DNA of 13,596 nt from Clostridiales bacterium (GTDB taxonomy: Bacteria; Bacillota; Clostridia; Lachnospirales; Lachnospiraceae): contig JAATEU010000492.1 in NCBI GenBank assembly GCA_015655565.1, positions 1-13,596 of the forward strand. Reading direction: 5' to 3'. Position numbers and translations under genes: made by a program. Positions 540-13,130 of this stretch are shown one piece after another. The notes beneath the pieces were generated by a model, which saw only the letters and a program-made list of their open reading frames with translations, ran no database searches and was not told the origin of the DNA. Positions within the stretch are counted from its first letter, which is position 1; each line of letters opens with the position of its first letter.

Positions 540-929
540 CTACAGATTTTTAATATAATTCAAATCTTTTTTATTTAATGCTTTTTGCAATTCTTGATTT
601 TTCTTTGAAAGATTTCCATTATCATTTTTGAGCTTATCAATCTGCCTCTGTAAAATCTGTACCTGCTTATCCATTGCTTTATCAAGAATAACTTTTTGTA
701 CTCTTGTATAGGTTTTACCCTTTTGCAAATCTTTTGCTTGTTCTAATGCCTTAGAGACTTCCTTGTTCTTATAAAAAAATGCTCTCGATAAGCCCGTTTG
801 CTTTACCAGTTCTCCCACTGATATCTGAACATTCTCTTGTAACATTATAGAAATTGTTTTCTGGGCTTTTTCTATTTTTTCCAAGCTTTTTGCTTTATTG
901 GTGGCAACCATTTTGTCAAACTTCTCCAT
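540..929 (-). CDS. tnpC: TnpC-like transposition accessory protein (DUF6262)
   Basis: A small basic protein of 129 residues from the ATG at 929. That start is preferred because AAAGGGGTGG lies about 8 bases upstream; the GTG at 941 overlaps the preceding gene. The sequence has an N-terminal helical part, then a helix-turn-helix-like segment (VGELVKQTGLSRAFFYKNKE). A heptad-like coiled coil makes up the C-terminal third (QILQRQIDKLKNDNGNLSKK onward). Size, position at the end of the operon and architecture match Tn554 TnpC, about 125 residues, which is not a recombinase but influences transposition efficiency and orientation. The gene begins 5 bases after the stop of the third recombinase and is the last of the operon. 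No strong terminator follows before the presumed element end. Confidence 0.8.
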   Translation of the reverse strand: MEKFDKMVATNKAKSLEKIEKAQKTISIMLQENVQISVGELVKQTGLSRAFFYKNKEVSKALEQAKDLQKGKTYTRVQKVILDKAMDKQVQILQRQIDKLKNDNGNLSKKNQELQKALNKKDLNYIKNL

Positions 930-934
930 TTTGA

Positions 935-2428
935 TTACCACCCCTTTACCAACTCTCTTAAAATCTCATCCATACTCTGTCGCATTTCTTTTGTTTCAGC
1001 CGCCAGAACATCATTGCTTAACTTACGATAATACTTTACGGAACTCATATTAGCATGTCCCAATAATTTTGCTATGGTTTTATCGTCCACATGCATTTCT
1101 GTCAGTTTCCTGCCATAACTATGTCTGAATAAGTGTGTTCCTACTCCAAATAGTTCTCCATTGTCATCCCTTAAATCTTTTTCCCGAATCATTACCATGA
1201 GCCGGTACTGGATTGTTGCATAGGACATAGGTCTTGTCTGGTCATTATCTGAAATAAAAATATATTTGTTTTCACCATAATGCTTTTTAGAGTAACCGAT
1301 AGAAGCATTAACAAGTGATATCACATCCTCATTCACGGTCTTACTAAAACTACGTCTGGTTTTCACCTGATTTATTGTAATGATATCTCTTCCGCTCTTC
1401 TTAGAAAGACAGGTTTGCAATAACGTCAGTGTATCAGATATTCGTGTTCCCAGCATTTGATGTAATATTAACGCCCTTGCTATCTGCTCATCCATTTCAA
1501 CAATTGAAGCATTCAGCCTTAACAGCTCTTCATCCGAATATGCCTTATAAAGAACCTCTGGACTTCTTGGAATATCGGAATCAAGAAACAGGCTGCAAAT
1601 ATCTCTCCAATCATTCATTCTTCCCACTAGCTCCAATACACTTTTCAAATGCAATAAATCAGTTCGGTAACATTTCCTATCTGATGCTTCCGTATTCAGA
1701 TGAATGAGATAATTTTCTATATGTTCTCTTTTAAGTTCCCCAAACGATCTCATATCCGGATAATTTCTATCAAGAAATTGTGTAAAGCGATTCACGGATA
1801 TAAGCTGCGTAGTTATCGTTCCAAGAGCCTTATAGCTTAGATCCATAAGGGATGCTTTCTTTACCTCCTCTTTCATTTCATTTTGTGGTATCTTTGAAAA
1901 ATTCAAAGTCTTGATATTTTTCACTGGATTTTTCCATACATTAATCTCTAACTTCCCAATTTCCCATATATCCTTCTCTGTTTCTTTCCGTGCATCCTCT
2001 GGTTTAAGAAATGAGTACACTTTTCTAAGGTAACTAATGGTTTCCGCTTCCCTATGAGTTACACTATCAAACTGTTTTTTAAACCGTTTAGCAGTCAGAC
2101 TGTAATTATTTTTTAATAGCCACGCTTTCATCATTTTTACAAGCTGATTCTCTGAAAGTTCTAACAAACTGTTTCTTTTAGAAACTTTATCACTTAAAAA
2201 TTTGCAAAGGATATTATAATTCCATATCTCACTTCGTAAGCTAAGTACCGTGATATGCTCTCCATTTCCACGCTCCTGTATAAACGATCTTAACTCCTTT
2301 TTCAATCCTTCTGTTGGAAGCCTGTCTAAATCAAAACACCTGTTACGGCTCTTATAAACGGACGAATCTGTGCCTACATGCAACTTCTGATAACAAGGTA
2401 ACTCGTAAAGGTAAATCTTATTGCTCAT
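935..2428 (-). CDS. Tyrosine recombinase, third member of the trio (497 aa)
   Basis: A phage-integrase-family protein that should cut and rejoin DNA through a tyrosine nucleophile. Visible catalytic residues: Arg329 in LGTRISD, His432 and Arg435 in THLFRHS, His458 in LLGHANMSS, and Tyr467, nine residues after that His as in the other two recombinases. A SAM-like core-binding region lies at roughly residues 195-270 (FTQFLD, HIENYLIHL). The first 190 residues are a poorly conserved N-terminal extension. The ATG at 2428 overlaps the end of tnpB by 11 bases and has GGAGG just upstream, implying translational coupling. Classical Tn554 has only TnpA and TnpB as recombinases, so this is an additional paralogue. 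Its position between tnpB and tnpC suggests all three act together, as in trio-type (RIT-like) systems. Confidence 0.88.
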   Translation of the reverse strand: MSNKIYLYELPCYQKLHVGTDSSVYKSRNRCFDLDRLPTEGLKKELRSFIQERGNGEHITVLSLRSEIWNYNILCKFLSDKVSKRNSLLELSENQLVKMMKAWLLKNNYSLTAKRFKKQFDSVTHREAETISYLRKVYSFLKPEDARKETEKDIWEIGKLEINVWKNPVKNIKTLNFSKIPQNEMKEEVKKASLMDLSYKALGTITTQLISVNRFTQFLDRNYPDMRSFGELKREHIENYLIHLNTEASDRKCYRTDLLHLKSVLELVGRMNDWRDICSLFLDSDIPRSPEVLYKAYSDEELLRLNASIVEMDEQIARALILHQMLGTRISDTLTLLQTCLSKKSGRDIITINQVKTRRSFSKTVNEDVISLVNASIGYSKKHYGENKYIFISDNDQTRPMSYATIQYRLMVMIREKDLRDDNGELFGVGTHLFRHSYGRKLTEMHVDDKTIAKLLGHANMSSVKYYRKLSNDVLAAETKEMRQSMDEILRELVKGW

Positions 2429-4382
2429 GCCGACCTCCCATCTTTATTTTTCCTGCAAGACTGCTCTTTTTCTCCTTGAAATATTCCTCATTTGCCTTAT
2501 CAATCTTTTCTGGTATGTAATCCAAATATTGCTTAGTCATATTTTCGTCTTTATGTCCCAGATAATCCCTTACTGCCTGCAAGGAAGCTCCATGTGCATA
2601 TAATGAGGTTGCCACCATATGCCTATAATCGTGGGAACGAAACGTATAATCACCACAGCTAATACCTAATTCCCTACACTTTGTTACCATTTGCTTACTA
2701 AATGTGTTTACGTCAAAAGCTCCACCTTTTGCATTCTGAAAAACATATTCACCCGGCATAATCTGATTTCTCTCAATATATGCCCTCATTAATTCATAAA
2801 GTATAGACGGAATGGGCACCGTTTTCTCCGCTTTCATTTTGTTCTGATACAGCTTAATCCATGTATCCCCTTTCCTCTGGTAGTAAGCATTTACTTTAAG
2901 CATGCAGACTTCATTAACCCTAAGTCCAATGCTCCATAGATGAAGATACATAAGTCTTAAATGCTCAGGGAACAAATAAAGGTTGGTAAGCATTTGTGAT
3001 ATAGTGGCTTGCTGCACCGACCTGTTATGGTGAACCGGAAAGGTATCTTTCAGATAGTATTCCAGTACAAATGGTACTTTTCCTATATGCACTTTTACCC
3101 AAAGGAACCGGAAAAACCTATATATATTAACCACTTTTCCATTGAATGTTTCCGGTTGGATATTTTCTTCGATGGTTTTTAAATATTCATCCACGTCCTG
3201 CCCTGTTATTTGTGTTACCAATATTCCTTTTTTGTCACAATACTGTAGAAATTCTAATATGCGATAATGCTGGCATCTTATATTCTGTATTGCTATGTTC
3301 GTAATCCCAATTAAATATTGCATATAGCCTTGAAAGTACTTTCTATTCTCCTTGCTATGCACTTGGAAAAATGAAATACTCAAAACAGGATTGCTTGGAT
3401 TCATTCGGTCACTTTGCAAGTGAAACCGTTCCATATACCAGACGTTTGCTTCCCAATTTGTCTTAGCCGCATCCAAAAACAAGAACTTTCTTATATTGTC
3501 TACAATCTGCATATACGAATCATCTAGTGTGTTCCCTATCTCAATAAGACTTTTCCTAAATGCTTCAATCTGCTCTTCTTCCAGTCTTTCCATATCCTCT
3601 ATTCCATGCTCAATACAAAACTGGTAAAGCAATTTTAATGGGACTATAAATCGTTCTCTCCTGTCATGACGTGCCATCACATTTTCTAACGTATAATTGA
3701 GCATATCAAAAATCTGATGCTTTATTTTTACCGGGGCAGGTAGGGAGAAATCAAATACCAGTTCTTTCTTGTCTCTGGTATAGTAAAATGACATTGCTAA
3801 ATCATAATCAGCATGATACAAAAGAAATATCTTCTCTTCCGAAAAATTTAGTTTCCTGCTCTTAAATGGACCTTTCTCACATTCTCTTTTAATTGCATTG
3901 AGCTTGATGATATCCAATATTTTAAGATATTCCTTTATCTTGTTTTCGTTTATGTAATTCGCTAGATAGGCTTCATAGGAACTGCGTACCTTATAATCAA
4001 TATCCCGTAAGGAAGAAACGTTATGAGAAATTAAATATGTTTCCGCCTTCCTCAAAGCTGCGGTTAACTGCATATCCTTTTCAATTTCTTTTAGCATTTC
4101 CCCATGGGCTACGCTATAATAGTGAAGCTGTAGCATTTCTAATGAGGATATATAATAACTTTTCTGCCCATCTGACAAATCCTTTCTTCTACCAAGATAG
4201 TTTTTGAAATTCAACTTATCCTTATCGTTAATATCCCCTATGGAATAAATGCCTTCCTGAAGTAGAAATTCCCTGACCGTATTACGCATCCTACCTTGAA
4301 CATTTATGCAGCCATTCAGCTCTGCGTCAAGCTTGGCAACCTTTGCAGTCATATCAAATTGTAGAATGGATAATGCAGCCAT
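2418..4382 (-). CDS. tnpB: Tn554 TnpB-like tyrosine recombinase (654 aa)
   Basis: A large tyrosine recombinase, close to the about 630 residues of Tn554 TnpB. The C-terminal catalytic domain (about residues 455-625) shows Arg488 in IGLRVNEV, His584 and Arg587 in SHDYRHMVA, His610 in YLGHKDENM and the nucleophile candidate Tyr619 in KQYLDY; Lys515 or Lys517 is a candidate for the beta-hairpin lysine. A core-binding segment lies at about 340-430. The long N-terminal region (1-330) has repeated helical stretches and no motif I recognise. The ATG at 4382 follows the tnpA stop by 15 bases and has AGGGGGTG at good spacing. The 3' end overlaps the next recombinase. In the Tn554 family, TnpA and TnpB are both needed for transposition; the same is inferred here. 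Confidence 0.9.
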   Translation of the reverse strand: MAALSILQFDMTAKVAKLDAELNGCINVQGRMRNTVREFLLQEGIYSIGDINDKDKLNFKNYLGRRKDLSDGQKSYYISSLEMLQLHYYSVAHGEMLKEIEKDMQLTAALRKAETYLISHNVSSLRDIDYKVRSSYEAYLANYINENKIKEYLKILDIIKLNAIKRECEKGPFKSRKLNFSEEKIFLLYHADYDLAMSFYYTRDKKELVFDFSLPAPVKIKHQIFDMLNYTLENVMARHDRRERFIVPLKLLYQFCIEHGIEDMERLEEEQIEAFRKSLIEIGNTLDDSYMQIVDNIRKFLFLDAAKTNWEANVWYMERFHLQSDRMNPSNPVLSISFFQVHSKENRKYFQGYMQYLIGITNIAIQNIRCQHYRILEFLQYCDKKGILVTQITGQDVDEYLKTIEENIQPETFNGKVVNIYRFFRFLWVKVHIGKVPFVLEYYLKDTFPVHHNRSVQQATISQMLTNLYLFPEHLRLMYLHLWSIGLRVNEVCMLKVNAYYQRKGDTWIKLYQNKMKAEKTVPIPSILYELMRAYIERNQIMPGEYVFQNAKGGAFDVNTFSKQMVTKCRELGISCGDYTFRSHDYRHMVATSLYAHGASLQAVRDYLGHKDENMTKQYLDYIPEKIDKANEEYFKEKKSSLAGKIKMGGRHEQ

Positions 4383-4397
4383 CTTTTCACCCCCTTG

Positions 4398-5516
4398 TTA
4401 TATTAGTTTGTCCACCATAAAGATAGATTTGTTTTTGTTGTAATAATCATCAGTAGCCTTACCAAGCTCATCCGTATCAATATCTAAGTATTGTTCCGTT
4501 GTACTAATATGCTTATGTCCCAACGCCTTTGATATCAATAGAATATCCCATCCACTCTTACGTCTTTCATTTGCAAAATAGTGTCTTAGCATATGTGGAG
4601 TTGCTTTTATTCCTGTTTTTTCTTCCAACCGTTTCAACATGGCATATACTGTATTGGCGTTTAATGGATCACCTGCATCCTGCCCTGCCAGATTCACAAA
4701 TAAGTAATCGTTATCCTTTAACAGATCCATATATTCAGAAAGATAATACATCAAAATATCAAATGTTTCCCGACTTATTTTTGCCCTCCTATATTCCGCA
4801 TATTTTGCTCTTGCCAAATTCTCATTATCTTCCCGATAGAATACCTTCAATGTTCTCTTGTCAAAGTCAATATCCTTCGTATAACGAATACCTAATAACT
4901 CACCTATTCGAAATCCTGTCTCTGCCAATAACAAGATGAGTGCCTGATCTCTACAGTTCACACATGCATCCAGAAGCGTTACTATGTTATCCTGTTCAAT
5001 TGTCTTTCCTCTATGTTCCTCCTCTCTAAAATATCCTTTGAATATCTTACAGGCTATGCTAAACCTCAAACCGGTTGTATTAGTAAAAGAAACAACTTTT
5101 CTTGATAATACTTTTAAATCTCCAAACTGCTCATATTCTAGCTCTAAAAATTGAAACCATCCAAACACATCTCTTAAGTAAGTATTACAGGTTGAATTGC
5201 TTGGTATTTTTTTCATTTTATTGCCGTTATGATTACCGTTCTTAAGCCATGTAAGAAAATCAATGAAGTGTTTATGCTGCTTATCATAAGGCAGCTCAAA
5301 GACCTCTCCAAGAGTCATGTTCCTGCCTTCAAGATAAGTAAAATAATAAGATAGGGAAAAGGCTATTCTCTTCACTGTGTTTGGAGATGCCTTTGCTCTG
5401 GTCTTATGAGTTAGATATTTTGTAGGAAGGGGGATGATAGACATATCTTCCATACAGCGGATGAAATAGTATGTTACAGGGCCATCCATTGCCTTATCTA
5501 CAATATATGGATTCAT
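4398..5516 (-). CDS. tnpA: Tn554 TnpA-like tyrosine recombinase (372 aa)
   Basis: First gene of the recombinase operon. From the chosen start (MNPYIVDKAMDG), catalytic residues are Arg203 in ETGFRIGELL, His308 and Arg311 in PHMLRHYF, His334 in LGHKHIS and Tyr343 in TEQYLD, with a core-binding domain at about residues 35-130. Length fits Tn554 TnpA (about 361). The frame is open upstream to an ATG at 5621. That start is rejected because a consensus promoter (TTGACA at 5581-5576, TATAAT at 5558-5553) lies inside the extension, whose residues are low-complexity I/N/Y. The ATG at 5516 has GGAGAGGTG just upstream. Expression is probably repressed by the divergent XRE protein through the repeated operators overlapping this promoter. 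Confidence 0.9.
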   Translation of the reverse strand: MNPYIVDKAMDGPVTYYFIRCMEDMSIIPLPTKYLTHKTRAKASPNTVKRIAFSLSYYFTYLEGRNMTLGEVFELPYDKQHKHFIDFLTWLKNGNHNGNKMKKIPSNSTCNTYLRDVFGWFQFLELEYEQFGDLKVLSRKVVSFTNTTGLRFSIACKIFKGYFREEEHRGKTIEQDNIVTLLDACVNCRDQALILLLAETGFRIGELLGIRYTKDIDFDKRTLKVFYREDNENLARAKYAEYRRAKISRETFDILMYYLSEYMDLLKDNDYLFVNLAGQDAGDPLNANTVYAMLKRLEEKTGIKATPHMLRHYFANERRKSGWDILLISKALGHKHISTTEQYLDIDTDELGKATDDYYNKNKSIFMVDKLI

Positions 5517-5544
5517 ATCATCACCTCTCCTTACATTTCTAACT

Positions 5545-5581
5545 GTATACACATTATACACATTATTGATATATATGTCAA
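5545..5581 (-). promoter_or_regulatory. Consensus sigma-A promoter of the tnpA operon
   Basis: On the minus strand, TTGACA (5581-5576), a 17-bp spacer and TATAAT (5558-5553) match the housekeeping consensus exactly. The predicted transcript starts near 5546, about 30 bases before the tnpA ATG at 5516. A tandem 9-bp repeat, ATACACATT twice (5547-5564), covers the -10 and start site. Operator copy 1 (5566-5581) covers the -35. A promoter this strong on a transposase operon implies that repression is important. Confidence 0.8.
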
Positions 5582-5668
5582 TTATAATAATGATATTTAT
5601 ATCAATTAAATACTTGAACACTTGATTTTTATGTCAATATATTGTTCATAAATTGACTTTGGAATCAA
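5566..5668. promoter_or_regulatory. Four-copy operator array, TTGA-N8-TCAA
   Basis: Four 16-bp palindromic sites lie between the divergent genes: 5566-5581 (TTGATATATATGTCAA), 5590-5605 (ATGATATTTATATCAA, one mismatch in the left arm), 5622-5637 (TTGATTTTTATGTCAA) and 5653-5668 (TTGACTTTGGAATCAA). Start-to-start spacing is 24, 32 and 31 bp. The first overlaps the tnpA -35 and the fourth overlaps the -35 of the XRE gene. The adjacent XRE protein is the obvious candidate ligand, giving autoregulation and repression of transposition. Binding is inferred; symmetry and position are directly visible. Confidence 0.75.
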
Positions 5669-5700: not shown

Positions 5701-6399
5701 ATGAACAATAACTTTGATAAAACTAAATTTTCCATTTTGGTAAAGCGGGCAATAGGCTCTGGAAAACAAAAAGACTTTGCTCAGAAGATACAGCTTAGCC
5801 CTGAACATCTTTCCAGAATAATAAATTCCAAATACGATAAACCGCCTTCAATCGAAACAATAAAGAAGATTGCTAAAAATGCCTTAAATGATGTAACCTA
5901 CTTTGAACTTTTAGAATCCGCCGGTTATGCCTCTAAACAGGATATACCGGATAATTTTTCTCTTCCAGAACAACCAGTAATAGAAAAATTTATGTCCGGA
6001 ACCATTTTAACGGCATTGCAAAATATCCATGTTCCTTGGACACTTGAAACGGATAACAAAGAAGGTATTTATAATCTTTCCATATCCCTCAACCAAGGCT
6101 TCTTTAAGCGTTGGTATTTCTTCTATTTAAATAGCGCCAATCAAGAGCTAAGAAAAAATCAGTTCAATTCATACTACCTGAGACTAATTTTTGAATGCTT
6201 AGAACCTACCGATAAAATCAGCTTTGTTACCAGTCTGGATGAAGAGTATAAATTATATATGGAAAGAACACCGAATAATTTAAATCTTAATCTTTCTATC
6301 ATTTTAATTGATGAACCTAATCTTTCCATTAAAACAGAATATTGGCTTCGTACAAATTCAATACTGGATGATAAATCAAAAAGTTTTTATACCTTATAA
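5701..6399 (+). CDS. XRE-family transcriptional regulator, probable repressor of the tnp operon
   Basis: A 232-residue protein with an N-terminal helix-turn-helix of the Cro/CI type at about residues 8-65 (QKDFAQKIQLSPEHLSRIIN, then PSIETIKKIAKNA). The remaining 150 residues carry a domain I do not recognise, possibly for sensing or dimerisation. The start is taken at the ATG at 5701 because GGAGGA lies 7 bases upstream; the frame is open back to 5653, but that extension contains the predicted promoter and operator 4. It is transcribed divergently from tnpA across a 184-bp region with four palindromic sites, so it is likely a self-limiting repressor of recombination. Whether an inducer or a cleavage event relieves repression cannot be told; no RecA-type cleavage motif or peptidase domain is evident. 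Confidence 0.8.
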   Translation: MNNNFDKTKFSILVKRAIGSGKQKDFAQKIQLSPEHLSRIINSKYDKPPSIETIKKIAKNALNDVTYFELLESAGYASKQDIPDNFSLPEQPVIEKFMSGTILTALQNIHVPWTLETDNKEGIYNLSISLNQGFFKRWYFFYLNSANQELRKNQFNSYYLRLIFECLEPTDKISFVTSLDEEYKLYMERTPNNLNLNLSIILIDEPNLSIKTEYWLRTNSILDDKSKSFYTL

Positions 6400-6478: not shown

Positions 6479-6877
6479 CTATTCTGTATCAATTTCATCT
6501 ATTGTTTCGTCTAAACCTTCTTTAATGGAATGAATGGATACCCCCATGTTTTTCGCCTCTGACAGAAAATAGTATAGCTGTTCCTCTTTCATTGCTATTT
6601 CCTTAATATCCCTGACGAATATAACCTCAACATACTCCTTTTTCATCCAGTTTAATAAGTCATCAATTGCTTTTCGTTTAATGTCAGTTTTATTCTCCAT
6701 ACCTATATCATCACAACGATACACCACAATATCTAGCAATTTAGTTTCTTTTTTACTGGCATATTTATAAATTTCACTACAAATATCCATAATTTCTGAA
6801 TCTGATTTTCTTGACTTAACAAAGCCAATTCCAATATATTTATAAAAAGCTTGTCTCCCTTTTGAGAATCGTGCCAA
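6479..6877 (-). CDS. Degenerate serine-recombinase N-terminal domain protein, probably catalytically inactive
   Basis: A 132-residue protein whose fold pattern follows the resolvase/invertase catalytic domain: strand IGIGFVKSR, helix to about 45, strand LLDIVVYRCDDIG, a KRKAIDDLLNWM helix, strand VEVIFVRDIKEI, a YYFLSEAKNMGVSIHSI end and an acidic tail. Active members carry Y-V-R-x-S with a Ser nucleophile. Here the aligned residues read F-V-K-S-R, so the Ser is displaced or replaced by Arg23, and the usual D-R-x-x-R of the later motif reads D-I-K-E-I. No DNA-binding C-terminal domain is present. The TTG at 6877 is preferred over the GTG at 6886 because GAGGTGAG lies just before the TTG. It probably binds DNA or partners rather than cutting; the function is unknown. 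A long structured leader precedes it on the same strand. Confidence 0.6.
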   Translation of the reverse strand: MARFSKGRQAFYKYIGIGFVKSRKSDSEIMDICSEIYKYASKKETKLLDIVVYRCDDIGMENKTDIKRKAIDDLLNWMKKEYVEVIFVRDIKEIAMKEEQLYYFLSEAKNMGVSIHSIKEGLDETIDEIDTE

Positions 6878-6916
6878 TATACTCACCTCACAATTTAAGC
6901 ACTAATCTAATCATAA

Positions 6917-6993
6917 ACTTGTCCTCTCACAAAAGAAGATTCATATTTCATAAATAATAAAAATTTCTAATCTTCTCATGTGGGAAGACAAGT
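6917..6993. repeat. 25-bp imperfect inverted repeat in front of the recombinase-like gene
   Basis: The arm at 6917-6941 pairs with 6969-6993 at 21 of 25 positions, around an AT-rich 27-base loop. The right arm also contains GGGA-A-GACA (6982-6990), which pairs with TGTCTCCC (6997-7004) in a shorter hairpin. The two foldings exclude each other, as in attenuators and RNA switches. No clear T-run follows the long stem in the minus direction, so it is not a simple terminator. Confidence 0.65.
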
Positions 6994-7390
6994 AACTGTC
7001 TCCCTTGGTCTATCGACCTGTCTCTCGACATTCCCCCAGCCGGGTAACATATACTAAGTTTGCTTAACCATCACTACACTTCTGCAATGCCCATCCAAGC
7101 ATCATCTGTAAGTAGCCACCCTCTGAATATGCTTTACGCTGATATTCAGGCGTTGTAATATCTCATTAGCTCCTGTTGCAACACAGGTAGGCACAATCCT
7201 CTGCTCTTATCCTTCACAGGCAACGGTAATATAACCGCAGGGTAATCATCGCACGAAATGGGATTCTGCCACCCTTCTATTTTGAAAGGCGAAAATATCA
7301 TCAAGGTATATGCGTGTCCTATTCAGTTTTGGATAGGTCTACAAGAATTTCTGTTTTTCCTTTGCTTTGTCAAAGGCTCTTTCTACTAAA
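6917..7390 (-). ncRNA. Candidate long structured RNA upstream of the degenerate recombinase gene
   Basis: No frame codes for more than about 40 codons here, and base composition is clearly richer in G+C than the flanks. Read on the minus strand it forms a run of local hairpins. CTGAATAT/ATATTCAG forms an 8-bp stem at 7149-7123. CCTGT/ACAGG lies at 7187-7172. Two abutting 4-bp stems follow, TGTC-GAGA-GACA (7030-7019) and GGTC-GATA-GACC (7018-7007), each closed by a four-base G..A loop. The next stem is GGGAGACA/TGTC(T)TCCC (7004-6982), then the long 25-bp stem. Abutting tetraloop stems are typical of folded RNAs. A possible promoter lies at 7428-7399. It may be a stand-alone RNA or a leader of the gene at 6877. 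I cannot assign it to a known family; boundaries are approximate. Confidence 0.55.
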
Positions 7391-7398
7391 TACTATGC

Positions 7399-7428
7399 AA
7401 TATATAGCCAGTATGTTTTTTGTGTTAA
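7399..7428 (-). promoter_or_regulatory. Possible promoter for the structured RNA
   Basis: On the minus strand, TTAACA (7428-7423) is followed after 16 bases by TATATA (7406-7401), or after 18 bases by TATATT (7404-7399). Transcription would begin near 7392 and run into the hairpin-rich region and the recombinase-like gene. Both boxes are imperfect and AT-rich, so this is tentative. Confidence 0.35.
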
Positions 7429-7505
7429 ATCTTGTTGACCATGTACAAATTATATATGTATTCTTTTCGCTTTCAGAGTGAGTAGTACTCTTTTTAGTGG
7501 CATTT

Positions 7506-7829
7506 TCACTCTTTTAGCAAATCAATGTTTTTAATTATGTCGTTTACCATATACATAATAAACTTCTTTTCTGGTACACTTCTTCCTTTTAACATTACGT
7601 TCAACTCTGATTTAGGTTCTTTTCCTACAATTATAAAATCCAAAGACACTCCGAAATAATCGGCTATACAAACCAACGTATCAACTTTGGCTCCATTGAC
7701 TCCTCTCTCGATTTTCCGATATCCATCTAAAGAAATACCTATAGCCTCAGATACATCTTCCTGTCTTAATTTTTTATCAATTCTCAACCCTTTAATTCTC
7801 TTTCCACTTGTCTTAATATCATAATACAT
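7506..7829 (-). CDS. ICE-type XRE-family transcriptional regulator (107 aa)
   Basis: A small DNA-binding protein beginning MYYDIKTSGKRIKGLR. Its Cro/CI-type helix-turn-helix lies at about residues 8-65 (RQEDVSEAIGISLDGYRKIE, then VDTLVCIADYFGVSLDFIIVG). The MYxxxKxSGKRI start and the FGVSLDxxxxG motif are characteristic of small XRE proteins on Tn916/Tn1549-type conjugative elements of gut Clostridia. The C-terminal 35 residues are basic and helical. AGGAGGATAAAGC before the ATG is a strong ribosome-binding site. It is transcribed toward the structured RNA and preceded by about 370 bases of non-coding leader. It probably controls transfer or excision genes of the surrounding element, but the target is not visible here. 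Confidence 0.8.
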   Translation of the reverse strand: MYYDIKTSGKRIKGLRIDKKLRQEDVSEAIGISLDGYRKIERGVNGAKVDTLVCIADYFGVSLDFIIVGKEPKSELNVMLKGRSVPEKKFIMYMVNDIIKNIDLLKE

Positions 7830-8200
7830 GCTTTATCCTCCTGATTTTCATGAAATATCCTGTTAACTCGAAAATCAGAAATTGTTACTGACTCCTGCAT
7901 CTTGGCACTAATTTGAACATGTTGATTCCCCTTTCAAATACGCACCTGTAAATGCACAGCAATAAAGCCTATTCGTATCTTATTTATTCCACTTCCTAGA
8001 TTCACAAAAGCAGTATCCAGCAAAACAGTAAGTACCCTCATGTAAAAGCTTTCACTGGTCTATTTCAGTCAACTCAATTCCTTGTTGCTGCTTTACGCTG
8101 TACCTTATACCGAAAAGTGACATTATGAGTTACCTTTTATCTGATGACCTTTAAAGGTCCCATCAATTTGAGAAGTTCATTTCTAAATTTTTTTTTGTAT
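7830..8200 (-). other. Long non-coding leader of the XRE gene with small ORF remnants
   Basis: No complete gene is seen in this stretch. On the minus strand there is an 11-codon ORF, MFKLVPRCRSQ (7920-7885), with AAAGGGG in good position; it could be a leader peptide. There is also a 23-codon ORF beginning MSLFGIRYSVKQQQG in the interval 8127-8055. A further frame contains cysteine-rich runs such as YCFAGYCFCESRKW. These look like pieces of an eroded conserved leader rather than intact genes. Any attenuation role is speculative. Confidence 0.35.
8146..8159. promoter_or_regulatory. Perfect 14-bp palindrome, candidate operator
   Basis: GACCTTTAAAGGTC is perfectly self-complementary. It lies far upstream of the XRE gene and just downstream of a terminator, where a promoter for the leader would be expected. 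The binding protein is unknown; the adjacent XRE regulator is one candidate. Confidence 0.4.
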
Positions 8201-8237
8201 TAAAAAAGAGGGATAGTGTTTTGATACACTATCCCTC
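8201..8237 (-). terminator. Strong rho-independent terminator (minus strand)
   Basis: GAGGGATAGTGT (8208-8219) pairs perfectly over 12 bp with ACACTATCCCTC (8226-8237) around a 6-base loop. On the minus strand the stem is followed by TTTTTT (8207-8202). It would stop any read-through from the agr side before the XRE leader. Confidence 0.85.
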
Positions 8238-8878: not shown

Positions 8879-9070
8879 CTATTTTTGTACTGAAGTATCA
8901 TCTTCCTTTTGTCCCAATTTAGGGTTTCTTGTTGGTCGCTTCGGTTGATAAAATAGTCCCATACAAACGGGGGGCCAGCCCCAATCATTAGATTCGTTAG
9001 CCACATTGCGAGCTGCACGAGCTGCGAATGCAATTGCCATTTGTTTTAATGTTTTTTTGTTCTTACCCAT
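8879..9070 (-). CDS. agrD: AgrD-like cyclic lactone autoinducer precursor (63 aa)
   Basis: This encodes the propeptide of a quorum-sensing signal. The N-terminus (KKTLKQMAIAFAARAARNVA, about residues 5-24) is an amphipathic helix of the kind that anchors AgrD to the membrane. Cys36 begins the segment C-M-G-L-F followed by YQPKRP (41-46); clostridial AgrD proteins typically have Cys, a few hydrophobic residues, then a (Y/H)xPKxP motif. The predicted signal is a five-residue thiolactone closed between Cys36 and Phe40, with an N-terminal tail of uncertain length (perhaps within WGWPPV). A 17-residue polar tail with acidic residues follows. The ATG overlaps the agrB stop by 8 bases and has AAAGGAGG upstream. 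Precursor identity is well supported; the mature peptide is inferred. Confidence 0.85.
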   Translation of the reverse strand: MGKNKKTLKQMAIAFAARAARNVANESNDWGWPPVCMGLFYQPKRPTRNPKLGQKEDDTSVQK

Positions 9071-9656
9071 GTTTCGATACCTCCTTTTTATTAAATTTAG
9101 CTGATATTAATGAAATAGCCACCAAAATAATTGCCAAACAAGCCGAAATAATAATTGATGGCTTAACATTTACTAGTAAAAGTAATACTATTATAATCAG
9201 TTCTATTAATAAAAATAATCTTGAAAGTTTCTTGCATTTCTCCACTTCATGCATAGTAAGATTTAGATTAGGATGATTAACTGGCGAATAAATAATTATA
9301 CTTATAGATGATAAAATAAGAAATATTGGCAATCCTGTAAGTGCAATTTTAGGTTTCATATTATCTGCCACGAGAATAGAAAACAAACTTATTATAATAG
9401 AATAAAAAATGCAGCCATAGGTTGTTTGTAAATGAAAGCCTCCTGTTTGTCCCCTAAGAAGCATCAGAAATACCATAAAAACAATCATTTCTGGTAAAAG
9501 CTCAAAGGTAAGTCCGATAATCAATAAAATTGAATAGGTGACCGCTTTCATGATAAGTATTTCAAATCCATATATATACGTTTTTTTATTCGCCAAGAAA
9601 CTATCATTGGACTCCATTGATAAAATCGCCAGCCTACATGATAACTTATGTATCAT
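9063..9656 (-). CDS. agrB: AgrB-like autoinducer-processing membrane protease (197 aa)
   Basis: An integral membrane cysteine endopeptidase that should cut the C-terminal part of AgrD and promote thiolactone formation. The conserved motif is RGQTGGFHLQTTYGC, giving His75 and Cys82, the same seven-residue spacing as the catalytic His77/Cys84 pair of Staphylococcus aureus AgrB. Hydrophobic segments fall at about residues 38-52, 56-68, 83-97, 106-122, 145-160 and 166-183, and the length matches the family. The ATG has GGGGGA about 8 bases upstream. It overlaps agrD, so the two are co-translated. It is separated from agrC by about 190 bases containing a possible independent promoter, suggesting separate control of signal production. 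Confidence 0.92.
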   Translation of the reverse strand: MIHKLSCRLAILSMESNDSFLANKKTYIYGFEILIMKAVTYSILLIIGLTFELLPEMIVFMVFLMLLRGQTGGFHLQTTYGCIFYSIIISLFSILVADNMKPKIALTGLPIFLILSSISIIIYSPVNHPNLNLTMHEVEKCKKLSRLFLLIELIIIVLLLLVNVKPSIIISACLAIILVAISLISAKFNKKEVSKHG

Positions 9657-9687
9657 CTATATTTCCCCCAAGTGTTAATAATTTCTA

Positions 9688-9767
9688 ATTATAGTATATA
9701 TTTTAAATTATTTGGATTATTCTTCAAGTAATTATGCATTTTTAATGGCTCTATTACATTTTTAATG
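9688..9767 (-). promoter_or_regulatory. Candidate agrBD promoter with 11-bp direct repeats (possible AgrA site)
   Basis: On the minus strand TATAAT lies at 9693-9688, 32 bases before the agrB ATG, with no good -35. Upstream are two exact copies of CATTAAAAATG (9767-9757 and 9747-9737), 20 bp from start to start. LytTR regulators typically bind two direct repeats about two helical turns apart, upstream of promoters with poor -35 boxes. The arrangement therefore suits control by the AgrA-like protein encoded upstream. The repeat does not closely match the S. aureus AgrA site. Confidence 0.5.
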
Positions 9768-9848
9768 CACATCTCAAAGACTTCCTTTTGATTTCGTATC
9801 CAATTTTATTAATGCAACAAATTGAAACTGATGCCCATTACAATCCAT

Positions 9849-11093
9849 TTAAAAATCTCCGTTACATTTTTTCAAAGACATAGCTACATTTTGAATTCCA
9901 AGTCCATGTCTGCTCTTATCTTCCTTTGTTGTCGCAATCCTATTATTAACTATTTTCACTGATTTTGACACTGGATTTATGACTGAAAATATAAAAAAGT
10001 CATTTTCAATTATTAATTTAACTGTTATAATTTTTTTAGTCTTAGCCTCTTCACAAGCCTCAATTGCATTATCTAGTACATTTGCAATTATTACAACAAG
10101 ATCCTCAGCTGGAAGATTTAATGTTGATAAATCCCCTGCGTGTATATCCATAGTTATTCCTACTTTCTGGGCAATTTGATCCTTTTGATTCAGTATAACA
10201 TCGATAATATCATGATTGGTTTTAATCCTATAAAGACTATAGTAAATATCTCCTGACAAATTTCTAACATAGGATAAGGCTTGGTCGTAATTATTTGTAT
10301 TTAACATTTGGTAAATAATTGTGATATGATTCTTGTAATCGTGCATTATATTTCTTTGCATATCGTATGAATTTTTTAATGAAACAATACTCTTCATTTC
10401 AATATCCAATTGCATTTTAATCAATGCATTTTCTCTAACATTTTTACCGTGTTTGGCTGCCGCTTCAAGGAGCTCAAAAACTAATAGTGTTGAAAACAAT
10501 AGACCAACACCAGTAATTTCAACAATATATGGAATATTTTTCAAGCCTGTACATAATTCAATTATCGTAATTAGAGCTAGTATTGTTATAATTGAATACA
10601 CTATTAAAATAATCCAGTCTCTCTTTGTCACATATTCGATTGCTCGATTACGTGAAATAATTCTTGAAAATAAAACAAATGATAGGGATAATAGCACTTT
10701 TGAAATAATTGCAGCAAAGGGGAAGAATATTGTACTACTAATAATTGTCTCCGATGATGCCGAAAAAGCAGCCATCAAAGCAAGTAAAACAAAATGGTCC
10801 AATGCTATAATTGTTGTATATAAGATAATTGACGAGCCAATGCAAACCCAGAACTTCGACTTATAAAATAATATTGCAATAAACATATAAAGCATTATAA
10901 TCAATAATACTTTAATGAATGGGAATGAAACAAAATATGATATGATTAATCCAGGTATGGCAATAGACAAAAGTATAATATATTTATCCAGTCTATTGTT
11001 TATAATTTGCTTTTTATCCATTATTGAGCTAAAGAAAATCATACAACACATTGACTCGTAAAGAACAATTGCAATACTAAATAATATGCTCAT
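9849..11093 (-). CDS. agrC: AgrC-like GHKL sensor histidine kinase, 3' end altered by a frameshift
   Basis: A membrane kinase expected to sense the cyclic peptide and phosphorylate the AgrA-like regulator. The first 210 residues hold six or seven membrane spans. A coiled linker (215-245) leads to the phosphoacceptor region with His251 in NIMHDYKNHITI. The GHKL ATPase has its N-box at 335-350 (IIANVLDNAIEACEEA) and its G-box at RHGLGIQNV (396-403). The frame stops right after KKCNGDF. If one T is dropped from the run of five at 9855-9851, the frame continues as KWIVMGISFNLLH to a stop at 9811-9809, a family-like final strand. So the gene is either slightly truncated or carries a homopolymer error. 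The ATG overlaps the agrA stop as ATGA, implying coupling. Confidence 0.88.
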   Translation of the reverse strand: MSILFSIAIVLYESMCCMIFFSSIMDKKQIINNRLDKYIILLSIAIPGLIISYFVSFPFIKVLLIIMLYMFIAILFYKSKFWVCIGSSIILYTTIIALDHFVLLALMAAFSASSETIISSTIFFPFAAIISKVLLSLSFVLFSRIISRNRAIEYVTKRDWIILIVYSIITILALITIIELCTGLKNIPYIVEITGVGLLFSTLLVFELLEAAAKHGKNVRENALIKMQLDIEMKSIVSLKNSYDMQRNIMHDYKNHITIIYQMLNTNNYDQALSYVRNLSGDIYYSLYRIKTNHDIIDVILNQKDQIAQKVGITMDIHAGDLSTLNLPAEDLVVIIANVLDNAIEACEEAKTKKIITVKLIIENDFFIFSVINPVSKSVKIVNNRIATTKEDKSRHGLGIQNVAMSLKKCNGDF

Positions 11094-11794
11094 AATTTAC
11101 CTCTATAGAGAAATAATCTCTTTTTCGTTTCTGTAAATTTATTCTGACTTATGGGTAATTTAGTATCATTTTTGAGAAACGCCGTATAGTTCTTCACGTT
11201 TAATAAATAACTTATATTTACCAAATAGCTTTTATGAATTCTTATAAAATCATCAGAAGGTAAAATCTTTTGTATACCATCTAATTTACCATAAAGGTGC
11301 CTTCTTTCTTTATCCCCATTAAAATAAAAATATAGAGTATGGAGCTTGCTTTCTATATAAATTAAATTTTCTGTAAATATCGTTTCAGCACCATATACAA
11401 AATCTAATGTAATTTCCGTTCTAAAAAAACCCATCTCATGCAATATGGCATCCATTGTTATATCAAACAATGATTTTAATTGGTCTTTGAGAATATACCG
11501 AAAAGCTTTTACCTCATATCCGCTCGGAGCGTATTCTACATATGATGATACAAAAATCAAGATAAAATTAGGGTTCTTTCGTCGTAAAATGCTAGCTACT
11601 TCTATTCCATTCAAATCAGCCATCTGAATATCAAGGAAAACAAGGTCAATTTGACCTATGCTAGAGAGAAGTGATTCCCCAGATATATGATGTTTGATTG
11701 TAAATGGAATATTGTTCGTAGCCAAATATGTTCGTAGGTAATTGTCTAAACTACAAATAAAACGGCCATCGTCATCGCATATGACAATATTCAT
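11090..11794 (-). CDS. agrA: AgrA-like response regulator with LytTR DNA-binding domain (234 aa)
   Basis: A transcription factor of the AgrA/ComE type. The receiver domain covers about residues 1-120: acidic pocket CDDD at 6-9, phosphoacceptor Asp55 in LVFLDIQM, then FVSSYVEYA and AFRYILK. The LytTR domain covers about 135-232 (LIYIESKLHTLYFY, DDFIRIHKSYLVNI, LPISQNKFTETKKR). The ATG at 11794 is preferred to the ATG at 11800 because AAGGAGG abuts the latter and is spaced 6 bases from the former. It is the first gene of the locus, whereas many agr loci run BDCA. It probably activates agrBD through the repeats at 9737-9767. No matching repeats were found ahead of agrA itself, and bases 11801-11948 hold no other gene. 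Confidence 0.9.
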   Translation of the reverse strand: MNIVICDDDGRFICSLDNYLRTYLATNNIPFTIKHHISGESLLSSIGQIDLVFLDIQMADLNGIEVASILRRKNPNFILIFVSSYVEYAPSGYEVKAFRYILKDQLKSLFDITMDAILHEMGFFRTEITLDFVYGAETIFTENLIYIESKLHTLYFYFNGDKERRHLYGKLDGIQKILPSDDFIRIHKSYLVNISYLLNVKNYTAFLKNDTKLPISQNKFTETKKRLFLYRGKL

Positions 11795-11948
11795 TTGCAT
11801 CCTCCTTTGTGAAATAAAAAGATCTGTTTATCGAAATAGCTCATTCGCATACCTTATTAATTGCTTCATGTAAAATACATTATCCCGTGGACAATTAACA
11901 ATCAGAGACTTGTAATACCGTAATTTTCATAGAGCATTAGATATTTAT

Positions 11949-12448: not shown

Positions 12449-12878
12449 AAAATTATTTTTCACATTGATGTTAAATTCCACTTTCCTTAATTGGGAAACG
12501 ATTATAAACTAAAGATATTGGGTGGCAAAAAGGATTTACGCTTAATTCCCTCTGCTGTGGCCGGAGATAAGAAAAATGAGGCATGGTATTATCCTTGCCA
12601 AGTCCTTTCCGGCAAAACAGCACGGAATAAAAACTAGGGAAATGATAGGCGAGGCTATGAAGAAATATCCTGAGTTGACATTAGTACCCTCACATTACGG
12701 TTTGTATGAAAAGAATTCTAAGGCTTTTATGGAGCCGTTAAGACGATTTTCCCCGGTAGTTGAGCAATACTCTATAGACGAGGCATATTGTGATATGTTT
12801 GGCACTATCAGTCTATATGGTTCTCCTGTTGGCAGCCAATTATTTAAAAGATGCTATCCACACCGAATTAGGCTTAGG
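12449..12878 (+). pseudogene. umuC: Y-family DNA polymerase (UmuC/DinB type), N-terminal relic with at least four frameshifts
   Basis: The family sequence can be followed across frames. FHIDV at 12458-12472 carries the first catalytic Asp. An extra A at 12473-12475 follows, then NSTFLNWETI, then a lost T near 12503, then YKLKILGGKKDLRLIPSA. An extra A in the run 12572-12576 precedes MRHGIILAKSFPAKQHGIKT. The SIDEA catalytic motif lies at about 12774-12788, and another shift near 12832 precedes NYLKDAIHTELG. Homology then ends; the fingers, thumb and little-finger domains (about 270 residues) are missing and no start codon remains. When intact it would copy past DNA lesions under SOS control. 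The single open frame 12576-12986 is only the longest surviving piece and joins polymerase to unrelated sequence. Confidence 0.85.
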
Positions 12879-13130
12879 GCTACCGAGGAAAACAGGGAAA
12901 AACTGAATGCCGCAATTGAAGTTATTGAAAAAGCCAAAAAACAAAACCGCATACCCTCCGCCAAAGAAGCAAGGGAATGGGAGTAATGGTATAATAATGC
13001 GGCAATTGAAGGAGACGGATGCGTCGATCACATAATTAGTTTGGAGGAATATGAAAGAGCGAAATCAAGTCAGAGTTGGAAAGAGATGCGGTATAATGGA
13101 GCAAAGAAAGATTACTGTGATGATAAATAA
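12879..13130 (+). pseudogene. Small charged ORF fused to the polymerase relic and broken by a stop
   Basis: In frame with the polymerase relic, the sequence changes to ENREKLNAAIEVIEKAKKQN and RIPSAKEAREWE. It then meets TAA (12984-12986) and continues in the same frame as NNAAIEGDGCVDHIISLEEY and ERAKSSQSWKEM to TAA at 13128-13130. It is helical and highly charged. It probably represents a separate small gene that lay between the polymerase and the AbrB-like gene in an operon, joined to the polymerase by a deletion. I do not recognise its family. Confidence 0.45.

Follow-up and report, generated by a model that had tools for sequence, protein, structure and literature searches.

The window, by which we mean the whole stretch of 13,596 nucleotides analysed here, carries on its minus strand a large, strongly conserved folded RNA. 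This RNA sits upstream of, and is co-oriented with, recombinase genes. We lean, at slightly better than even chances, towards reading it as a cis-acting, untranslated leader at the 5′ end of the recombination operon of a mobile element. The genome assembly from which the window comes consists of 632 contigs and is 63% complete, the window being contig 103. The features discussed below are collected in Table 1.

Table 1. Features of the leader RNA and its neighbouring genes in the window, in order of minus-strand transcription
Feature	Position	Strand	Basis
XRE-family regulator gene (107 aa), next to the RNA on its upstream side	7506..7829	-	Pfam HTH_3, E 1.5e-10
Promoter-like site CTGAAA-16-TATAAT, putative leader start	7449..7476	-	10/12 consensus matches
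boxA-like stretch CCTATCCAAAACTGAATA, bordering the core	7320..7337	-	degenerate: 12/18 letters, 33/100 shuffles as good
RNA core, closed by helix P1	7029..7322	-	covariance model R1, 295 bits, the window being one of its 18 training sequences; covariation
P1 5′ strand	7306..7313	-	A1 columns 10-17; 5/7 pairs changed on both sides
Hairpin CTGAATAT/ATATTCAG, 8-bp stem 7123-7130/7142-7149	7123..7149	-	helix 9 of the covariation test
P1 3′ strand	7047..7054	-	A1 columns 597-605
Pair of abutting hairpins, loops GAGA and GATA	7007..7030	-	by eye; paired in the computed fold
Hairpin GGGAGACA/TGTCTTCCC, possible competitor of the terminal helix	6982..7004	-	by eye
25-nt terminal helix, 5′ arm	6969..6993	-	helix search; helix conserved among loci
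25-nt terminal helix, 3′ arm	6917..6941	-	helix search; helix conserved among loci
132-aa serine-recombinase catalytic-domain protein, TTG start at 6877, stop included	6479..6877	-	Pfam, model
Second XRE-type regulator gene	5704..6399	+ (opposite strand)	HTH_3, E 3.3e-6
Tyrosine recombinase 1	4398..5621	-	Phage_integrase, E 4.9e-33
Tyrosine recombinase 2	2418..4382	-	Phage_integrase, E 2e-26
Tyrosine recombinase 3	935..2428	-	Phage_integrase, E 4e-18
DUF6262 protein after the recombinases	540..941	-	E 4e-32

A gap of 619 nt separates the listed open reading frames at 7506-7829 and 6479-6886, all on the minus strand. When the 542 nt from 7428 to 6887 were folded as the minus strand, the energy was -154.9 kcal/mol, whereas 100 dinucleotide shuffles averaged -123.8 ± 5.4 and none was as low (z -5.8); read as the plus strand, the same 542 nt gave a z of -2.9, with 1 of 100 shuffles as low. 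The preliminary description had called this stretch long, non-coding and rich in hairpins, and the gap, the minus-strand fold and the presence of every hairpin that it named all agree with this. By eye, the abutting stems read TGTC-GAGA-GACA (7030-7019) and GGTC-GATA-GACC (7018-7007). The arms of the GGGAGACA/TGTCTTCCC hairpin, at 7004-6997 and 6990-6982, form a bulged stem that would take up part of the 5′ arm of the terminal helix, itself 84% exactly complementary. Nine promoter-like sites were found in the region against 6.7 expected and CTGAAA-16-TATAAT is weak on its own; TATAAT-like hexamers are visible at some related loci. A minus-strand scan of the leader for intrinsic terminators showed none. 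Away from the RNA, at 8208-8237, a hairpin (GAGGGATAGTGTTTTGATACACTATCCCTC) that is possibly a terminator lies beside T- and A-rich runs and coincides with a weak Rfam P31 match (8171-8237), which was set aside.

The evidence for a conserved structure comes from 26 distinct sequences aligned without reference to structure (alignment A1), for which RNAalifold predicted 65 pairs. Across these 65 pairs and 26 sequences, paired cells amounted to 95.2% against 80.4% in shuffles, 37 pairs had changes on both sides against 26.5, and the covariation score was 0.456 against 0.187 ± 0.009, values that none of 500 shuffles reached. The weakest measure, the number of further pair types, was 99 against 90.3 in shuffles, and 4 of 500 shuffles reached it. 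Slid controls gave covariation scores of at most 0.105; structure and test share one alignment, which favours the structure over the slid controls, but hardly by this margin. The 8-bp stem CTGAATAT/ATATTCAG had 99% of its cells paired, with compensatory changes in 4 of 5 pairs, and the alignment shows a compact multi-helix core with many invariant unpaired positions. The structured RNA that had been proposed from the hairpins alone thus does covary.

The same data indicate which strand is conserved. With G-U barred from the prediction, the core has 52 pairs, holding 47 G-U against 8 A-C cells, and with G-U and A-C penalised alike the terminal helix holds 110 G-U against 29 A-C. The free consensus energy was -59.9 on the RNA strand and -36.5 on the complement. 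Raw counts of G-U against A-C (156 and 14 in the core, 166 and 30 in the terminal helix) were set aside as biased, since the prediction and the helix scoring had both favoured G-U. From the neutral tests together with the strand energies it follows that the minus-strand transcript is the conserved entity.

Copies of the RNA were sought in several collections. A DNA search of 145 relatives, the window's own genome included, found it in three, and a blastn search of phage and plasmid records at E 1e-3 found no relatives. An exact pattern returned seven viral-contig stretches, six of them with the RNA, and 46 stretches in GTDB genomes. Of the latter, 43 were scored by covariance model and all matched; two of the remaining three are the contigs of loci L004 and L005, which were scored there, and the third, L018, was rejected as a chance match of the pattern with missing words. 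The 45 GTDB stretches with the RNA belong to Lachnospiraceae, Roseburia, other Clostridia and one unplaced bacterium. The covariance model, built from 18 sequences, matched in 17 of 397 family genomes and in 1 of 398 genomes of a phylum-wide sample, namely the window's own, under strict filters that may lose weak copies. It places the RNA in species that include Roseburia faecis, R. inulinivorans, R. hominis and Anaerobium acetethylicum. All 67 loci chosen as carriers of the RNA, the 18 training sequences included, match at 127-324 bits. Two weak matches among the large-recombinase modules were dropped, L183 (E 0.022) since by our reading it lies inside a coding region, and L181 (E 0.91) since the match to the full model spans a mere 61 nt.

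In 42 of 45 loci a near-perfect helix of 21-32 nt lies 3′ of the core (the median for the full set of 45 is 28 nt); L006 has another helix as its longest, and L025, L092 and L093 have shorter helices. When scored by Watson-Crick pairs only, the helix still reached at least 20 nt in 40 of the 45. Since this helix can stand about 300 nt ahead of the first recognised gene, it does not simply mask a ribosome-binding site. We looked for a rival structure with a gapless test that seeks an upstream segment able to pair with the 5′ arm of the terminal helix. Scores of at least 7 were obtained for 31 of 42 loci, including the window, where the register differs from that of GGGAGACA/TGTCTTCCC. The mean was 7.8 against 6.4 when upstream regions were swapped between loci, a control run without the loop rule, and 34 of 42 loci exceeded their own swapped mean. 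Against shuffles the gain was modest (mean 7.3 against 6.2, 28 of 42 loci at 7 or more), and in 11 of 42 single loci at most 3 of 60 shuffles did as well. The gain over swapped regions and the modest gain over shuffles make a competition between terminal helix and upstream hairpin plausible, short of proof. Both hairpins of the pair originally noticed, a 25-bp stem and a shorter rival, are present, and their competition stands as plausible.

Just 5′ of the core, many loci read TTTGAAAACTGAATA or something near it. For the boxA test an 18-letter word was picked after such loci had been viewed, and its best match within about 200 nt was recorded; in 25 of 42 loci its position coincided exactly with the edge of the core, and in the other 17 it lay elsewhere. 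Taken singly, 15 of the 42 loci had a match equalled by at most 5 of 100 shuffles, the window's copy not being among them. A closely similar word, TTCCTTGAAAACTGCATA, is found in the spacer that separates the 16S from the 23S gene in one related genome; since a 16S 3′-end query in seven genomes gave no matches, the rRNA spacer comparison rests on that one genome. The account of rRNA leaders in PMC10250234 has boxA recruiting NusB and S10, with the modified polymerase resisting termination, and proposes that the tethered leader aids a long-range leader-trailer helix. The new RNA resembles the leader and spacer of rRNA operons in that, at many loci, boxA-like words immediately precede a long, untranslated, folded RNA in which the 5′ strand pairs with the 3′ strand (P1). 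It differs in that no rRNA lies 3′ of it and in that the boxA-like words are degenerate in the window and in some lineages.

The 67 loci reduce to 47 distinct ones, 37 of which have at least 2.9 kb of downstream sequence; many loci are related and the locus counts are not independent. Among these 37, a large serine recombinase is encoded downstream in 33, its first frame 0.4-2.8 kb away, and a tyrosine recombinase in 2, so that 35 have one type or the other. DUF6870 follows in 30, a PemK/MazF-like gene in 21, and a small recombinase-like protein in 22, which is of the window's type in 20. On the upstream side, 27 of the 43 distinct loci for which the sequence sufficed have an XRE-type frame no more than 1.5 kb away. 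Where the sequence sufficed to count large-recombinase frames, 15 of 18 loci had three or four and 3 had one. Three recombinase settings are found 3′ of the RNA, namely tandem large serine recombinases, the tyrosine integrase of L093, and the three tyrosine recombinases of the window, which we take to be a Tn554-like arrangement. In the window an opposed XRE gene stands between the gene for the 132-aa protein and these recombinases. In L093 a small protein, which by our reading resembles an excisionase, precedes the integrase; in L094 there is a small protein only, in L091 one large recombinase and no other recognised module gene, and in L092 an apparently decayed copy of the RNA amid unrelated genes. 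Large recombinases of the first type were found at 19 places in 17 of 200 genomes; 6 have the RNA, 3 are cut by contig ends and 10 have no credible match, so that 10 of the 16 testable modules of this type lack a credible copy.

Several further genes were observed around the RNA. An agr-type quorum-sensing operon lies upstream of it on the minus strand of the window (8882-11800; AgrD-like, AgrB, a sensor-like ORF and a LytTR response regulator), and related Agr-type genes are also upstream in L086, L087 and L051. In L094 and L035 (Anaerobium), the RNA and small protein lie beside genes that we read as a Tad pilus cluster; an ORF at 1-384 of the window may belong to a similar Tad-like cluster, possibly a shared insertion region. 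A short ORF at 12576-12986 clusters (c10) with genes that we label Y-family-polymerase-like and that lie near the RNA at other loci; the window's copy is much shorter.

The preliminary description had paired the RNA with a resolvase-like protein of 132 residues in which the catalytic motifs are not conserved. The protein itself was as described. It matches Pfam Resolvase at E 4.3e-5, just past the cut-off, with no further Pfam domain past the cut-off, and its predicted model has the fold of a serine recombinase catalytic domain, a fold that the models give to two types of small recombinase-like protein. YxRxS and SRxxR are invariant in 20 large serine recombinases, and the aligned residues of the window protein are FVKSR and DIKEIAM; by alignment, then, it lacks the Ser nucleophile and the SRxxR motif of active serine recombinases. 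The model consists of one catalytic-type domain and a low-confidence end, with no DNA-binding domain found in the protein. A DNA-binding role through the 132-aa protein alone is unlikely, since a catalytic-type domain is present without an attached DNA-binding domain. Small recombinase-like proteins often end in -GC (L084, L085 and L089 are examples), perhaps from a stop region overlapping the ATG of the next gene, as seen by eye in one locus, and this may point to translational coupling.

The link between the two is looser than had been supposed. In 299 family genomes, 19 close relatives of the small protein were found (E at most 1e-12, open frame of at most 190 aa), 10 at RNA loci, 7 without RNA, meaning no model match at E up to 10, and 2 cut by contig ends; the query profile was made from RNA-locus proteins, which favours recovering RNA-linked relatives. 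All 7 RNA-less relatives have XRE and PemK genes nearby, and 6 of them also a tyrosine or serine recombinase within the stretch retrieved. Conversely, small recombinase-like proteins of any type are missing in 15 of 37 RNA loci. The inactive recombinase-like protein is thus a frequent neighbour of the RNA, not a fixed partner. The mobile-element setting that had been described for the pair stands, but the usual partner of the RNA is the recombination operon. Since the small protein and the large recombinases both also occur without it, the RNA is a module of recombination operons that no single gene requires and no single gene has to itself.

When the window (E up to 5) and seven related loci (E up to 1) were compared with Rfam, weak or unrelated matches alone came back, which bears out the first impression of an RNA unlike known families. 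The comparison gave no match to the models of ROOL, GOLLD, OLE, raiA, HEARO or group I and II introns in the window or the seven loci. Two miRNA matches on the 25-nt stem of the window (E 0.14 and 0.22), far under their cut-offs, were put down to chance matches to a long hairpin, and RsmY in L021 (E 0.011) and mir-3688 in L009 (E 0.22), near the RNA and also under cut-off, were likewise taken as chance. In its size, intricacy and strong conservation the RNA resembles ROOL, GOLLD, OLE and raiA; ROOL and GOLLD are often found on mobile elements. The HTH-XRE RNA (RF02923) occurs in the same elements or in close siblings, but is a separate small motif at another place; in L085 (8382-8461) and L050 (2881-2960) it shares a stretch with the new RNA and lies upstream of it. 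IS110 bridge RNA and the IS607 TnpB RNAs belong to RNA-guided mobile-element systems, in which a structured RNA lies beside a recombinase or nuclease. The new RNA is likewise encoded beside a recombinase, but the recombinases 3′ of it are of unrelated types. Searches of the literature, PMC12904643, PMC11109978 and PMC8040213 among it, turned up no description of it that we recognised.

A further comparison is with the cis-regulatory pemK RNA (RF02913, cut-off 34.8 bits), which had no match in the window at E up to 5 or in the seven loci at E up to 1. It is found in 51 of 150 family genomes and, like the new RNA, lies in sibling modules of the same family before genes for PemK and large serine or tyrosine recombinases; three sibling modules without the new RNA carry it (L180, L153 and L154). 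It too is preceded by boxA-like words: of 30 loci checked (L186-L215), 19 have a match that at most 5 of 100 shuffles equalled, and 15 have the words at positions -151 to -163. The two differ in sequence and helices, the pemK model being 61 nt long, and the window has no PemK frame downstream of its RNA. An AUGAUA..UUCG word common to both in a few loci was dropped, as it is not conserved in the family. When 13 pemK loci were aligned from the boxA-like words to the motif (A8), 27 pairs were found, 20 of them with compensatory changes, and one helix with such changes falls entirely 5′ of the Rfam motif. This helix and the boxA-like words suggest that the 61-nt pemK RNA of Rfam is the 3′ portion of a longer leader headed by boxA. 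A third kind of folded leader, unclassified, is present in 2 of 150 genomes, G213 (L174:2530-3020) and G039 (L217), at 97% identity; in G213 it is about 450 nt long (z -5.4) and precedes genes for PemK, DUF6870 and a large recombinase.

Read as a leader, the RNA would be started by a promoter behind the XRE gene. By analogy with rRNA leaders, Nus factors bound at boxA could keep RNA polymerase going through the long untranslated leader and let it escape Rho, and the boxA-like words could tether the P1 5′ strand while the core is made, which would aid pairing of the P1 strands. The choice between terminal helix and upstream hairpin might set the expression level of the operon, and the agr-type operon upstream in the window would be one candidate input. 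Against the leader reading count a core far larger than a simple attenuator needs, the large-recombinase modules without a credible copy, and the lack of a terminator in the scan of the leader. A sensor leader, riboswitch-like or protein-binding, would instead control translation of the operon or RNA stability without Nus-factor antitermination. It would suit the compact core with its many invariant unpaired positions, the possible competing 3′ hairpins and the leader position. Against it, the gene set gives no ligand hint, several unrelated recombinase types follow the RNA, and such a leader has no need for boxA-like words at a fixed place; we consider it rather unlikely.

It is doubtful that the RNA is cut from the operon to act in trans, forming a ribonucleoprotein with the large recombinase or the inactive recombinase-like proteins that takes part in choosing partner, site or direction of recombination. 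Its size and strong conservation, the large recombinases in 33 and small recombinase-like proteins in 22 of 37 loci, and the modelled recombinase fold of two small protein types would fit this, but the same RNA precedes unrelated tyrosine recombinases in the window and L093, the small proteins are often missing, and recombinases also occur without the RNA. Slightly less probable still is the idea that a complex of the RNA with the large recombinases and the inactive recombinase-fold proteins, shared across elements with unrelated recombinases, decides whether, where or in which direction the element recombines. The PemK-type gene in 21 of 37 loci and the pemK RNA of sibling modules raise the question of an RNA antitoxin or autoregulator of the MazF/PemK-like protein of the same operon, yet there is no such gene in reach in 16 of 37 loci, the window included. 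As to a Type III RNA antitoxin, no tandem repeats were found in the leader and no ToxN/MazF-like gene among the window proteins scanned. We regard an antitoxin as very improbable. Hardly credible at all is an element that works as DNA, be it an attachment site, a transfer origin or a cruciform, in place of an RNA; the long inverted repeat and the mobile-element position would favour one, but G-U exceeds A-C in both the core and the terminal helix, an excess expected for the transcribed strand only.

What is new here is a class of large structured RNA with clean covariation that heads operons which move DNA. With Rfam's pemK RNA as one part of a second leader of this type, the finding suggests that mobile elements in the family make repeated use of folded leaders headed by boxA. 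The RNA also offers a ready test of whether transcription elongation is the step at which their excision is controlled.
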